A DNA stretch of 64,000 nt from Diploscapter coronatus. Its lineage: Eukaryota > Nematoda > Chromadorea > Rhabditida > Rhabditidae. This document shows positions 43,101 through 63,400 of the stretch, piece by piece. Where the stretch lies: NCBI GenBank assembly GCA_964036155.1, contig OZ038422.1, positions 65,991,201-66,055,200 on the forward strand, written 5' to 3'. A model generated the notes under the pieces. It made no database searches and was not told the origin of the DNA. It worked only from the letters and a program-made list of their open reading frames with translations. A program made the position numbers and the translations under genes. The number at the start of each line of letters is the position of its first letter. The first letter of the stretch is position 1.

Positions 43101-46100
43101 ATGCTTCATAGCTATTCTAAACTATTTTCTTCATTGATAATCACATAATCTCTACTTTTTTGGTGAAAGAATTGATCATTTTTAGCGATATTCAGTCATT
43201 TTTCTCTTAAAACTGATGGTATTAATCTCCATTAGAATGAGCCGCGCGACCACAATGATTCTCGAATTTTTGCATATTATCTTCTTGTGGTTGCACCTCG
43301 CTCTGAGGATTAATACCATTTCTGATAAATTTTGAAAAATGCTCATTTTTCAGTGAAAAGACCCAGAAAGCGCGAGAATGGAATGTCCCCGTAGTGAACT
43401 ACAAATGGCTCATCGACCATTACTCGATCACAACTCACCCAGGACCTAGGGATTTCGACAACGAGAAATACCAGGTCCTGAAATTTTAAATTTTTTCACA
43501 AAATGAATAAATTTGCAGGTTGGATACTCGCGATGCCCCGACGTGATTTCTACGCCTGAAAAACTCGAAATGGAATGTGAGCATTTCAGGCACTTGTTGA
43601 GTAAGTTTTTTTTTTATAGAGTTTTTCAAACTTTTTCTTCGTAAGCTTCCATAATTACATAAAAGATGACGATTCTAGCAATTTATGATAACTCGGCGTA
43701 GATATTTTTCTTTATTTAAAAATTGACCAAACTACCTTTTTTATCATTTCAAAGCATTTTTAAATTAAAATTTGTCCATATGTTTCAAAATGTCTGTAAA
43801 TTTGCCAATAGAAAGAAACTTCGATTATTTCGGTATCTTGTAGGAATCTTTACGAAAATAGTCTAATTTTGGCTTTTCTTTCAGTTTCGTGGCGTCAGCA
43901 AATTCTCGTGAGCCAGGACGTGTGGAATCGGTCGATGGATCAGCGAAATCGGTACATTCAATTCGACGAGGCCTATTTCCCGTCTAGGTAAAATATTTTA
44001 TAACTATTTAAACATGTCTAAATACTGCCATATTTGAATTAGAATTGCTTTTTAGTCAGCATTTTGTTAAAGTTCCATTCTCCTTTTGAAATAAAAAAAA
44101 TGGATGGATAATCGAATAGGAAAAAAAGCTTCATTATTTGTCTATACATATATGATAGGGTTTCTAAACGAGTGTTGAAACGTAGAAAAAGAAAACAGCT
44201 TAAGATAATTTTAATTTTCAGAAGGCTGAGAACCCAATCAGTCGCTCCTACAGAAGAAATGATCGAGGAAATGCGGCGAAAACGAGAAGAAGATGGGGAG
44301 CAGGACAAGGTGCAAGTGGCTGTCGCTTTCGGTATTTTCGAGGATCAGGTGGGGGAATTAAAAAATAATGATTTTTCTAGGAAATAATGTTTTTTTCATA
44401 ATTAAACGAAAATTTATTTGAATACTAAAAACTAAATCTCTAGATTTACTTCTAATTTTCTTGAAATATACTAAAATTTGCTTTCCATTTCAAGTACAAA
44501 TATCAACAAAAAAAAGAATGGCCAAGAGCAACAAAGTCACGAATTCTAATTTCATTTATCCCGTGAAACATACAATATCTATCAAAAATGTCAATTTCAG
44601 GTAAAATCGATGATGACGTTGAAAGTTCGTTACCTGGGCGGCGTGGTTGTGGACGACATTTCGGCGTGCACGCATTTGGTGCTGCTGAACGGGAGGTAAT
44701 GTGCAAATCCCGCAACCTCGCCACTTTATGAGATAGTATGTGAAAGTGAGAGAACCTTTCCCCCTTACATTTCCCTATCCTCTCCTAACTCGACATACCA
44801 TTTCACTAAGTTGCGAGGTTGCGAGGTTTCCAAATAACTGAATGGCAGGCGATCGATCGAGTTGCTGAAGGGAATCGTAATGGGCAAGAACATCGTCTCT
44901 GCTGACTGGGTCGTCCATTCCTACGAGTGCAAACATTGGATGGGTAGGCGAATTTTGAATCTTTTAATTTTTTAAACAACCTTCACAAATTTTAATCTTG
45001 ATCTTTTTCTCGAAGATCAGTGCCTGTATTCATAAACGCATCCGGAGTCTCCAAATACACTTATGTATACGAGCATTTCTATACCTTCAAAATTCGTATT
45101 CTTTATTCGAGTTTTGATGAATTTCTTTTGTTTTCGAACTTATTGATTTTCTAGATATATTTCATGAAATAGTGAAGTTCTAAACTGAATGTACTATCTT
45201 TAGTGAATCTGCCACACCTTCAAATTGACAAGAAAAACGAATAGCAAGTCCTCATTTCACTATTTTCAGACACTTTGGACTATATGATGCGCGACGACGA
45301 AATGGAAAAGATTCTCGGCTACAGCTGCAAGCGGAGCATTTTGAAGGCCAAACATCAGTCCGTTTTCGAAGTACGTCAATTTTCCTTATTTTTTTTCTTT
45401 TATTGCAAAGTTTAGGACGTCACATTTTACGTGACTCCCTCGGTGGTCCCTAGCATTTCGGTGCTACACGAATTGATTAGACTGGGTGGCGGTCGAGTGC
45501 AGGAGAAACGGCCCACTCCACAGCAAATTCGTAGGGCTTTTAAAAATAGATTGAATTTTTTCTAGTGAAAAGATGTTTTTAAAGGAGTTATGGTATATTT
45601 CTTTTTAAAAAGATACATATTTTAATTGCTAATTATGATTCGAAAAATCAGGTCTCCTGTATTTATATACGGCTTACATGCACATACAGCTCTTTTTCTT
45701 ATTTCTCAGCTTTTCCTACATTCCTTACCCTCTGTTCGCTTGTAAACAGCAGTATGTAAATACAGGAAGCCGAAAAGTTTCAATTTGTTTCAAATGCATT
45801 CTTCCTAAAATGAAAAATTTTAGTGGAATACACAGAAATGGATAAGCCCCTGATAGTTGTCAGTTCTGAAGCCGACTTCAAGCTAGTCTCATATTTGGTC
45901 GAGGCTAATTTCGGTATGTTTTAAAATTCATAAATTTTCATCCAAAACGCAGCCTGCAAATGTGAATAATGTTATGCAGATTTTCAGTCTAATTGAGAAA
46001 ATTTGGTTCAATTTAAGTTGAATCTTATTCCAAATATCTGCAAAACTCAAAGAATTATAGTAAGAAATATTGAATTCGAAAAATTTAGCAATCTATCAAA

Positions 46101-52281: not shown

Positions 52282-54230
52282 TTGAAAATTTTCGAAAACT
52301 TTATTTGAAAAACATTAGCAAATAAAATGGAATGAAAAGTACGGCTAAAGTGAGTGCACATTTTATAAGAGTATGCGGAAAGGAAAATCACGAGCTGTTG
52401 AAGAGTTTATTGTCTAAACTTGCTAAATAAATTTTGAGAGCCTAATTTCGTTAGTTTTCTAAGAAGTGACGTAATAATAAATTAATCAAAGGTTGAAAAT
52501 TAGCAGCCTCACTCACCATTATACAAAAATTTTATTGAAGGTATCTCATTATCTACATATTACACCTCTAACATGGTAATTTGTCGTTCGGAAGAAAATT
52601 AGTTTACTTTCACTCTAGCTAAAATATTTACTTTGACAGTGATGCACAAGTAAAATTATACATAGCATAATAAAAATATCAAAGGTTTTTTTTTTTTAAA
52701 TATTTTCATCTGACTATCAAATATTTTCAACCGAATTTCTGAGGATATTTTTTATTCGAAAAAATGAAATTCCTTTTCGTCGTATATTGTTTGTTTCTAA
52801 CTAGGATAGCACAAAAATTAGATTGTTCAAAAGTCAACATTCACTTTTTCTAGATCTCCTCATTTATCACTCTTTCAACTTTTTAATTTTTCATAAATGC
52901 TAATACAGTATTGAAATTGAAGAGAATTAGTGAAGTAGGATTTATTCCCGAATTTTTAAAGTTTTTTTTTTTCCTCTGGCGATAGTTCATCAGAAACAAA
53001 CAATATATCATTTGTTGTACTAACAAATCAAATCTAAAGATTCGTTTGAGTTTCAATTTTCGGAAATCCGACTAAACTGAACTTCTGCATTTTATCATCC
53101 TAATTTCCCAAATTAAGTATGTTCTCATCACATTTCAAGGGCGCATAGTCTTGATAAAATGAAATTTGGTAGACCTGGGAAGTTGCATTTTCTAGAATTT
53201 CTCGTTCATGCCATTTTTGTGAAAAATGCTCCAACTTTCTATTATTGAATCCTTCCCCTTAGCGACAGAAACAAATGTTCTCCATTTTTCTACGGAGGGC
53301 GATCTTTATTCAACAAAGTGAGTCGTTATTCAACAAAATCTTTGTTGAATAACGACCTGGACTCTTTTCTACTATTATTTCCTTCCAGATATCGATGATA
53401 TGTAATTTTCAAATTTTTCCTCGATTGAGAATTCGCTCCAAAATGAACATTCGAAAACAAACAATAATGATATCATGATTGGTTATTTTTCGTGGATAAT
53501 AAGGAAAGAAAAACCAAATGTCGATTGGCTGATTAACCCTTGTTTCGATTTGGCTTTTGGGCGAATTCCCTATCGAGAAAATATTTGCAAAGCATCGTCA
53601 GTAGAAATAGTGTGAAGGCAACGGAGACGGAAAGATTCTGATGCTAAGGGACAGGAAAGTGTCTGCCTGTCGAACTATCGAATTGCCGATTACAGTCTAA
53701 ATAATCATAAATGTGTCAACCTATCTCAATTCTTTAGTTTTTCTTTTAATGATAAAAATCAGGTTTTCATGAAAAGATAGAATGAATTTTTTGCGTACTT
53801 TCGAAGTTTTCCGGTAAATTTGGCCAACTCGTTTCGATTTATTAGGTTGATCAATATTTCCTTGCAACTTTATGAAAAACAACATCTTGTTTTTCTTCTT
53901 CTGAACGAATTGCAAATTTATCAGTCCTTGTAGTATGATGACGATTAGGCTTTCAGTAGTTAATTAGATTATCATTGAATATTTTTGTATTATTCTGGCA
54001 TAACATGATGAGTTTTAGATGAGAGCACATTGTTACCAAACGCTATTCCCCTGCCTTTTTGTTATATTTTTAACTCTGTTTTGATTACAAAGTACTCATC
54101 TTTGGTAAATATGCATTCAAATTCTGAACTCTGAAATGATCATGTCGGAGAAATTTATTTAATACCTAACTCAAAATTTCTAGAATGACCAGCCCAGAAA
54201 ACAACAGGAACGATAACTGATCGGCAATTA
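52282..54230. other. Large intergenic region
   Basis: About 1.95 kb between divergent genes. Apart from the perfect hairpin at 53322-53356, I see only AT-rich sequence and short accidental frames (for example 53721-53915). No tRNA or other RNA gene was recognised. Confidence 0.5.
53322..53356. repeat. Perfect 16-bp hairpin
   Basis: GTCGTTATTCAACAAA is followed by ATC and its exact reverse complement. A partial copy of one arm (ATTCAACAAAG) precedes it at about 53309. It may be a structured RNA, a protein-binding palindrome or a transposon remnant. Confidence 0.85.
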
Positions 54231-60423: not shown

Positions 60424-63400
60424 CTAATAGATCTCCTTGTCAATCCCACTCGTAAAGCTGGCATTCAAGAATAATACCTTGTGGTAAGTCTTTACAACTG
60501 TGCTGCAGTACCTATGATAAATTGGAGTCATAGAGTATGCGTGATAAAAATAGTTTACTTACCTAAATCGCTCCTCCGGGTAATAGGTGACCTGGCTGAA
60601 TTTTATCGCGTGGAAAAACGGAACATTTTCATTGTAATTGTTGGACAGAGTCAGTCTGCGCGCGCCGCCTCCGGTCGGCGAAACTTTCCATGGATCTATA
60701 GCTCTGAAGGAAGTTAATGCATACGTCATTTTTAGGAGCATTTTCAATAAAAAAACAATTAGAGCGCGTTTCTCCTTATCCCACTTTTCCCTATGGTTCT
60801 TCCTTGTGAAATTGAATTAAATTTATAAGCTAGTAGAGGTAAAACTCCACGCTTCTAGAAATTTAAGAATCTCATTGACATGCTGATTAAATATGTCGGT
60901 CACGAAAATCAGGTCGTTAATGAGGGCAACAATGAAGTGAAATAACACAAACTAGCTATCAAAATATGATTATTGTCACATTTGTCATTTTTGACTGTTT
61001 AAAAATGATAGTTCCTACAATTCATAAACTTTCGAAAATATGTACAACTAGTCGTAATTAGTTTTGTTCGTTAAACCGAAATTAACCAATGTTCAGCGAT
61101 ATGAAACCTACGTTTGATGTTTAGTAGCCCTTAGATATTTGTAGAAGGCAATTTCAACGAATAGTTCATTTTTGTAGAATATCTTCATGAGATCAGTGAA
61201 AAATGGCATTTCCTGCGTTGGAATGTAATAGCTAAATTAATCACCAAATAGCATTATTATAATTAAATTTCCGTCATCTACTCACACATCGCTAACAGTC
61301 CAGTTTAGAAATTTCTCCATTTCAGTGACGGCTGTTTCATTTTCTTTTATAGCTTTTCTTTTCAGCAGCTAAATCAGGTTGATAATTGAAATGATCGAAA
61401 AATGTTGAAAGCATTACCCTTTGTCGATATTCTTCGACGGTGTTCTGGCAAGTCTTGCTACAATTTCGTTTGTCTTTTACCATGTCTATCGCATTTTTCA
61501 TCGCTGGTACGCCTTAAATGGTGTTTTGTTAAGGTTGTATAGACTAACGAATAAGTTTACCAACTACTCTTGCCCACCAAGGTCCTGAACCATATGCAGC
61601 ATTTTTAGTGCCCCACTGGTGAAATACCATGTCGAGATTAATTGGCTGCCAGAAATTCAACATCGCGTCGTCGGCAACCGCGAAATAACCTGATTTTTAT
61701 ATTTTTATTTATATGTGGGAATTTTCTACCTTTGATATTGCGTAGACCCAATTCATGTGCTTTTAACATGCAGATGTAACCATTGTATCCTCTGTTCATT
61801 TCCCTGGGATTGATATGGATGTAATTGAAAGGATATTGTAACGGTGGTTTATTTGAATGATCTAAATTTCAACTATGTTTAAAACTGCTGACAATCATAA
61901 TCATTACTAAAATCTTGCTTTTCAGGATACCAGCTTCCACAGAATATTATCACTCCAAAGTATGGCGTATACAGCCTTTGAACGTATGAATATCCATATT
62001 CAAGTCTTATAGGATGATTGCATATAATTATTAATGCCTGAAAAGACTAAATTGTTTATTCGACGAAATAACTACCAGGGATGTGCAGAAATTTTCGGAG
62101 AAAGATTTTCTTTCTTTGATCCATGCATCCTTTTCGTTATTGCTCGCTTAATTTCCGTTTTAAAACGGAAGGGAACGAAAATTGAGGGTGCGAGAAAAGG
62201 AGAGAAAGAAAGGAAAGAGGGCGTGGAGCTGAGAAAGAGAAAATCGTTCTCCGAAAATTTTCACATATCCCTGATAATTACCCTAAGTTGCAATTACCGT
62301 TTCTAGAATCTTATTCAATTGAGCTATATTAGAATGTTGTTCGGCTAAAGTCCTATGCGAAAAAATTTTATAATTGAGATCTGAAATTAGGATATGACCC
62401 ATCAATTGCATGTAAATTTTACCAGTAACATTAGTTTTATCGCACAGCTCTACAAAATCTTGAAAATTTTCCATCTTCTGGATTGATCGAGTGTCATCCT
62501 GGAAGCGTATTTGAAGTGTAAAATGAAATTCAAGAGTTTACTGTCTGATTGTCTGCAGTTGTTTTTTCATTGAATACTTGCAAGAACATTCGACGACAGT
62601 TCACATCCGTAGTATTTTCCAACCGAGGCAATTCATAATTCGAAGGCTTAGATAAGGGAGGAAATGCGTATCTAAATTTGAATAGCCATTATAAAACATA
62701 AAAATACAAAGTACCCAATCTGAATCAGATCATGAATCCATTCTTTGACCAAATCAACATCGTCTTCCTGCCAGAATTTCATTTTTCTGAGGTTCGAATT
62801 AAAAGAAATATTATCACAAAGGTTACCCAAATTGTTTAGCCAATTCAATCGCACAATTCGCTGTAGACTCTTGACTGCACTTCCACTCATCAAGAAACTT
62901 CAATAATTCCCCTGACTTGAGATAAACTTCCCTGAATTATGGCAAATATTTTTGAAGAAAAATGAATTGTACTGTTCATCTTCAAAATCCTTCAGATAGT
63001 TGTGAGCATTTCTGATTTGAACTGCATTCACAGGGTAAAATGCAACATATTCATCGATGAGATGCAATAATTTCTGCGAAAAGTACGATCGCCAAATATC
63101 GGTTGTTCTAAATTCATATTCTTATTTAAATTAAAATTATATTCTTTTACCTGAAAGAAACAGTAGTAGGCAGGAACATGGTGAAGAATGCATTTCTGTG
63201 GAAGAGAGTATTCTGTGAATTCCAAGGCGAATACATTTTCTGGCCCAAAATTATGGGAGGTGCATGTCGATTGAAATGCTCTGATGAAACTTTGGTTGGA
63301 TTTGCATGTAGTAATCTGAGTATTTTAAATTGATCAAATTCATTGAAATAATTTACCTGAAAATGGCATCGACATCAGGATCCATATCAACGAGTCCTTG

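Follow-up and report, generated by a model that had tools for sequence, protein, structure and literature searches.

The window analysed here is a stretch of 64,000 nucleotides (nt) from the nematode Diploscapter coronatus (GenBank assembly GCA_964036155.1, contig OZ038422.1, positions 65,991,201 to 66,055,200 of the forward strand), and positions below are counted from its first letter. It carries pis-1, a gene encoding a BRCT-domain protein, in which a predicted intron of 153 nt consists of a short transposable element, the duplicated target of its insertion and a single host base. We conclude that this intron was very probably born when a miniature inverted-repeat transposable element (MITE) inserted into an exon and was then, as predicted, spliced out. 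A preliminary description of the window had proposed an intron birth through an element with terminal inverted repeats (TIRs) and an 8-bp duplication in a coding exon, and this proposal is supported at the level of sequence. Two of its labels, "hAT-like" and "recent," had to be given up, as described below.

Structure of the pis-1 intron and the reading frame across it

All features of this intron lie on the forward strand, and the element and its duplication were placed in the register of the family profile. The upstream exon (44601-44695) encodes part of the BRCT domain, reading ..CTHLVLLNG-AG in frame with the BRCT of PTIP (PAX-interacting protein 1), and contains the exonic copy of the 8-bp target duplication, GAACGGGA (44687-44694). 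The MITE copy, 145 bp long with TIRs, occupies 44695-44839; its first base, the G at 44695, is at the same time the final base of the exon. The inverted arms of the copy (44696-44741 and 44793-44838) are 46 nt each and 78% complementary. The element is followed by the intronic copy of the duplication, GAATGGCA (44840-44847), and then by the downstream exon (44849-44943), which begins with G-CGATCG.. and encodes RRSIELLKGI... The predicted intron (44696-44848) comprises 144 nt of the element, 8 nt of duplication and one host G. Its donor, GTAATG (44696-44701), corresponds to element bases 2-7 and comes from the terminal repeat (family end GGTAATTCGG), and its acceptor AG (44847-44848) is made of the duplication's last base and the adjoining host base. 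Excising the intron leaves the same letters as excising the element together with one copy of the duplication. The preliminary description had given these coordinates and the sources of both splice sites exactly, and the family register confirmed them. It had also extended the similarity between the two duplication copies to 10 of 12 bases; the 8-bp core stands, but in the additional CT and GG it is the element's own terminal bases that are matched with host bases, which adds nothing to the duplication.

Two bases distinguish the copies of the duplication: at acceptor position -6 the exonic C is a T in the intronic copy, and at -3 the exonic G is a C. All three of the other pis-1 acceptors examined also have T at -6 and C at -3. 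This pattern fits a refinement of the acceptor after the birth of the intron, two changes being few. The RNA hairpin calculated for 44687-44850 had an energy of -52.2 kcal/mol (z -5.2), which was equalled by none of 200 shuffled sequences. No Rfam family matched in the window.

Exons 44601-44695 and 44849-44943 join as ..CTHLVLLNGR/RSIELLKGI.. (slashes mark junctions). A joined chain of four exons matched the BRCT of human PTIP (3sqd) with an E value of 1.3e-12 and no gap at the junction. The protein search returned five nematode homologues, four of which carry the name PAX-interacting protein 1 in a source, and these likewise showed no gap there; the BRCT frame is restored as cleanly as had been claimed. 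A Pfam BRCT match (E 3.9e-5) was obtained with the joined protein only, and neither half alone matched Pfam. If the intron were retained, the next codon after the junction would be TAA, and use of an internal CACTAAG acceptor in the element would likewise lead to a stop (alignment read by eye). The 5' copy of the duplication sits in coding sequence that aligns without gaps with the homologues. Therefore, the target of the insertion was an exon and not an intron. A D. pachys PIS-1 covering the junction was not found in the protein searches.

Three contigs make up the genome of 169.7 Mb; the two large ones are C1 (87.7 Mb, carrying the window) and C2 (82.0 Mb). Over eight pairs of 3-kb stretches, C1 and C2 were 91.6-95.3% identical, and they therefore behave as homologous chromosomes; an excerpt of PMC9071541 reports single chromosome pairs for both D. 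pachys and D. coronatus. The pis-1 intron is present on both homologues. Between the haplotypes, 12 of the 144 element bases are changed and a 1-nt indel makes the intron 152 nt long on the other homologue, and the neighbouring pis-1 introns show similar levels of change (18/246 and 33/326). The four-exon chain, of 139 codons, has 12 changes between the haplotypes, 11 of them at third positions; ten are synonymous, and the other two fall in a single V/A codon. Since this chain spans the junction, the concentration of changes at third positions indicates that the joined frame is in use. The pis-1 reading frame is under purifying selection between the haplotypes while the element drifts, and the indel, which leaves the frame unharmed, itself points to removal of this sequence from the message.

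The MITE family and a second candidate intron

The first DNA search with the element gave 41 matches, a lower bound with 40 of 71 candidates scored. A 26-base terminal pattern allowing up to 3 mismatches gave 72 matches, while the reversed pattern, used as a control, gave none. A profile over 96 loci yielded 92 non-overlapping matches, which represent 54 independent sites as judged by flank similarity. The element is 102-180 bp long over these sites, with ends extrapolated from the profile. The family ends are GG..CC (GGTAAT.. or GGGTATTC.. and ..ATACCC), one side reading GGTAA(T/C)TCGG and the opposite one GGGTATTCGG. The window copy had the top profile score (135.9 bits) and, at 11%, the lowest divergence from the family consensus among the 54 sites, both profile and consensus being seeded with this copy.

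The preliminary description had made its case depend on related copies with 8-bp duplications elsewhere in the genome, and such copies were found. At a fixed register, 16 of the 54 sites, including the window, had duplications matching at 6 or more of 8 bases, compared with 1.7% of cross-site pairings; among 42,667 8-mers sampled from the loci, 0.34% matched GAACGGGA at this level. When the register was allowed to shift by one base, 14 of the 54 sites matched at 7 or more of 8, against a shuffled mean of 0.65 and a maximum of 3 in 200 shuffles. The register was picked from the data, and four right-end offsets gave 8, 14, 14 and 13 of 54 sites, the corresponding mean lying below 1 in every case. 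The family is short and multicopy, with TIRs and with 8-bp duplications above the shuffles, as expected of a MITE.

An 8-bp target duplication is common to hAT and other superfamilies, and in this respect the family agrees with hAT. However, hAT termini are of the CA(G)..(C)TG type, and the ends here are GG..CC. Nine matches to the hAT transposase domain PF05699 were obtained in the genome, none of them within 600 kb of any of the 72 TIR matches or 92 profile matches. We therefore rejected the hAT assignment made in the preliminary description. Merlin elements have an 8-9-bp duplication and GG ends, and both the ends and the duplication length of the family fit Merlin; IS1595/Merlin (PF12762) and MULE domains had no match at an E value of 0.001. 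These transposase-domain searches were made at the exon level, and their counts are lower bounds.

A further copy lies in an ankyrin-repeat gene (L056, C1:63022937; Pfam Ank 3.6e-30, with a SAM match under the cut-off), in the opposite orientation to the gene. On the basis of the duplication and the frame, an intron of 152 nt is predicted at L056:1380-1531. The duplication, CTGAAGGT, matches at 8 of 8 bases and contains AG/GT, and both splice sites come from it (AAG/GTGGGA..CTGAAG/GTC). Retention of this intron breaks the frame, while the join GNLK/VVNLLLERGA completes an ankyrin repeat. Over its core, the protein shares 98-99% identity with two D. pachys models, of which WR25_07258 has exactly this join. 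L056 is likely, from its predicted structure, to be a second intron derived from the same MITE family. Two public proteins, P0003 and P0004, which are 93-96% identical to the ankyrin protein, begin just past the L056 junction; these starts may hint at an intron there too.

MITE copies were found on both homologues at 30 of the 54 sites, and the L056 allele on the other homologue is continuous at 97%. None of the tested sites showed an empty allele: among 16 joined-flank queries, 15 revealed a 121-155-bp insert on the other homologue and 1 matched only in part. The other seven single-homologue sites comprised three with no located counterpart, one with 84% matches only and three that were located. 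With introns on both homologues and no empty allele among the tested sites, the births of the pis-1 and L056 introns both predate the separation of the haplotypes, and the 12 changed element bases in pis-1 likewise speak against the recent birth put forward earlier. There was no haplotype-specific insertion among the tested sites, and the family seems to have been silent since the haplotypes separated.

Some side observations were made on the family and the window. The flanks of one MITE copy are repeated at C1:2339097/C1:87341730 and at C2:2202292/C2:81466092, near the contig ends, with 96-99% identity within a contig, which points to a duplication between two chromosome ends. A scan of the window for other TIR structures with duplications gave 12 candidates and no convincing coding junction; it required 7 of 8 matching duplication bases and missed the pis-1 copy itself, so that its sensitivity is low. 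A TIR element at 45649-45770 (CAGGTCTCCTGTAT.. / ..TAAATACAGGAAGC), with a 7/8 duplication, lies within a later pis-1 intron, away from its borders. Two other structures, at 62096-62252 and 53419-53578, have 15 of 16 and 14 of 16 paired end bases, respectively, and 7/8 duplications, with no coding junction.

Alternative origins and introner status

We propose the following course of events. A transposase would have cut the pis-1 exon with an 8-bp stagger. The element end GGTAAT would have supplied the donor, and the A of the duplicated 8-mer, together with the next host G, would have supplied the acceptor, leaving the mRNA unchanged. The terminal repeats may fold as a hairpin that brings the splice sites together and so could aid splicing. 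Afterwards, the duplicated 8-mer on the intron side probably changed by drift into a better acceptor. The second intron, that of the ankyrin-repeat gene, likely goes back to the same family; there the copy is inverted relative to the gene, and the duplication supplies donor and acceptor alike.

Several observations count against this proposal. The window duplication is imperfect, with GAACGGGA and GAATGGCA matching at 6 of 8 bases. A coding-junction scan gave scores of at least 3 to 3 of 91 copies (2 sites), the next best being 0.7, but 34 of 3420 shifted control positions also reached 3, which leaves an enrichment of the family at introns unproven; an earlier, laxer scan gave 3 of 91 copies versus 30 of 1800 shifted positions. 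In both cases the antisense strand scored highest, the sense scores being 3.0 and 3.6 for the pis-1 alleles and 3.9 for L056. Finally, the D. pachys model WR25_03287 (P0002) has 14 residues, LRGGKVTRFPNYLK, inserted at the L056 join. The codon score used in the scan gives about 1-2% hits at shifted positions and is blind to strand, and it was not used as proof. With enrichment left undemonstrated by the scan, the protein evidence has to be weighed case by case, and the two cases stand on domain continuity, the duplications and, for pis-1, selection. The first open-frame test, which scored antisense frames as high as true ones, was superseded by the codon score. L088, a candidate third case favoured by the open-frame test, was rejected on its negative codon score.

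The 14 additional residues of the D. pachys model correspond to the 3' end of the L056 element, its terminal repeat, read from an internal TCTAG acceptor (by eye). Since they are encoded by the element, the insertion is present in that D. pachys allele as well, the model using the internal acceptor; an acceptor within the element may be used instead at this site, a candidate exonisation of the MITE end. This model, and the absence from the pis-1 acceptor TGAATGGCAG of the T-run seen in neighbouring acceptors, would agree with inexact removal at these sites, through a broken gene or an acceptor used inside the element. We consider this quite unlikely, given that in pis-1 both retention and the internal CACTAAG acceptor lead to a stop and that haplotype changes across the junction-spanning chain are nearly confined to third positions. 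It is also quite unlikely that an older intron was already present, with the MITE landing near its donor and the remainder of the old intron being lost later. Non-exonic insertion is indeed the usual fate of the family, all but 2 of the 54 sites read not looking intron-defining. However, just 9 nt of the pis-1 intron lie outside the element, none of them upstream and 8 of them duplication, and an insertion into an intron would have left both copies of the duplication intronic, whereas the 5' copy is coding. Chance resemblance of an unrelated intron to the repeat, for which the imperfect duplication might speak, has a negligible probability: the window copy matches the profile end to end with the top score, even if the profile was seeded with it, and the 41 DNA matches, the 72 terminal-pattern matches and the family-wide 8-bp duplications refute it.

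A different question is whether the exonic insertion in pis-1 belongs to a dedicated introner family that has founded many more introns in this genome, just two having come to light in the part of the family that was read. The two introns are independent, in unrelated genes and in opposite orientations, and the search counts are lower bounds, as noted for the first DNA search. Against this, 2 of 54 sites are intron-like, and the next best copy falls far short of the scan threshold, so that we regard such a family as quite unlikely. Excerpts of an introner survey (PMC9860276) set the cut-off at four or more similar introns from unrelated genes; of the 54 sites read here, two look like introns. 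The duplication and TIRs of a DNA transposon are present at the intron ends, and mRNA length would be unchanged as judged from the sequence and the ungapped protein alignments. A burst introner family is not supported by the number of intron-like sites among those read.

Relation to known intron sources

The removal of a DNA transposon by splicing is reportedly known for Tc1 and Ds, from work by Rushforth and Anderson in 1996 and Giroux et al. in 1994, respectively. As predicted here, a DNA transposon in an exon is spliced from the pre-mRNA, and the Tc1 case is from a nematode. Those cases are said to be laboratory mutants in which splicing is often imprecise. In contrast, the MITE described here has long been kept on both homologues, and exact restoration of the coding sequence is predicted. 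Huff et al. are said to have described MITE introners in algae in 2016.

Introners with the signatures of DNA transposons were surveyed by Gozashti et al. in 2022 (PMC9860276); this and the following comparisons draw on excerpts of the papers cited. Common to those introners and to pis-1 and L056 are a non-autonomous TIR element, a target duplication, the recruitment of one or both splice sites from the insertion site and, for most families of the survey, an unchanged mRNA length. Both modes of recruitment found here are listed in the legend of its Fig. 2. Unlike those introners, the family described here has 2 intron-like sites among the 54 read and combines two recruitment modes. In the survey, the introners reported from animals and land plants are confined to two groups, both of them animals, and the main text does not contain the string "nematod." For the intron gains detected in Caenorhabditis (PMC9169325), source sequences could not be found; that study concerns the same phylum and the same question, and here, unlike there, the source element is identified. 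Amoebophrya introners (PMC7789003) resemble the present case in their inverted ends, in direct repeats at the exon borders and in a proposed hairpin joining the exons. A study of tunicates (PMC13326754) names introner transposons as one origin that weak splice sites might have in an animal. The Amoebophrya and tunicate introns are largely non-canonical, whereas those described here are GT-AG, and the many intron copies of Amoebophrya contrast with the few found here.

No open-licence paper containing both "introner" and "Diploscapter" was found by full-text search, and no comparable nematode case of intron gain from a MITE or introner was found in titles and abstract beginnings of the papers listed from the open-licence literature, which is not proof of absence. 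The biology is of a known kind; what was not found in that literature is the combination of a nematode, a low-yield family, two splice-site routes and a seemingly matured acceptor. In our reading, this is a nematode MITE family of the ordinary sort, which now and then gives rise to an intron and stays under the four-intron threshold for introners.

How animals acquire new introns is not settled. Here the source is legible, with the element family identifiable and its duplication lying in both exon and intron, and within one family it can be read in two unrelated genes with two splice-site routes. We raise only tentatively, as a possibility that may well prove wrong, that ordinary MITEs are a low-level source of nematode introns, one or a few per family, whenever a donor or a duplicated AG/GT works by chance; such events could be the origin of source-less nematode gains and would be invisible to surveys requiring four or more look-alikes. 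Introns equal to an element plus its duplication are thus worth seeking singly, beyond families of at least four. The finding points to a continuum, with dedicated introners at its visible end and the insertion of an ordinary MITE at its low end.
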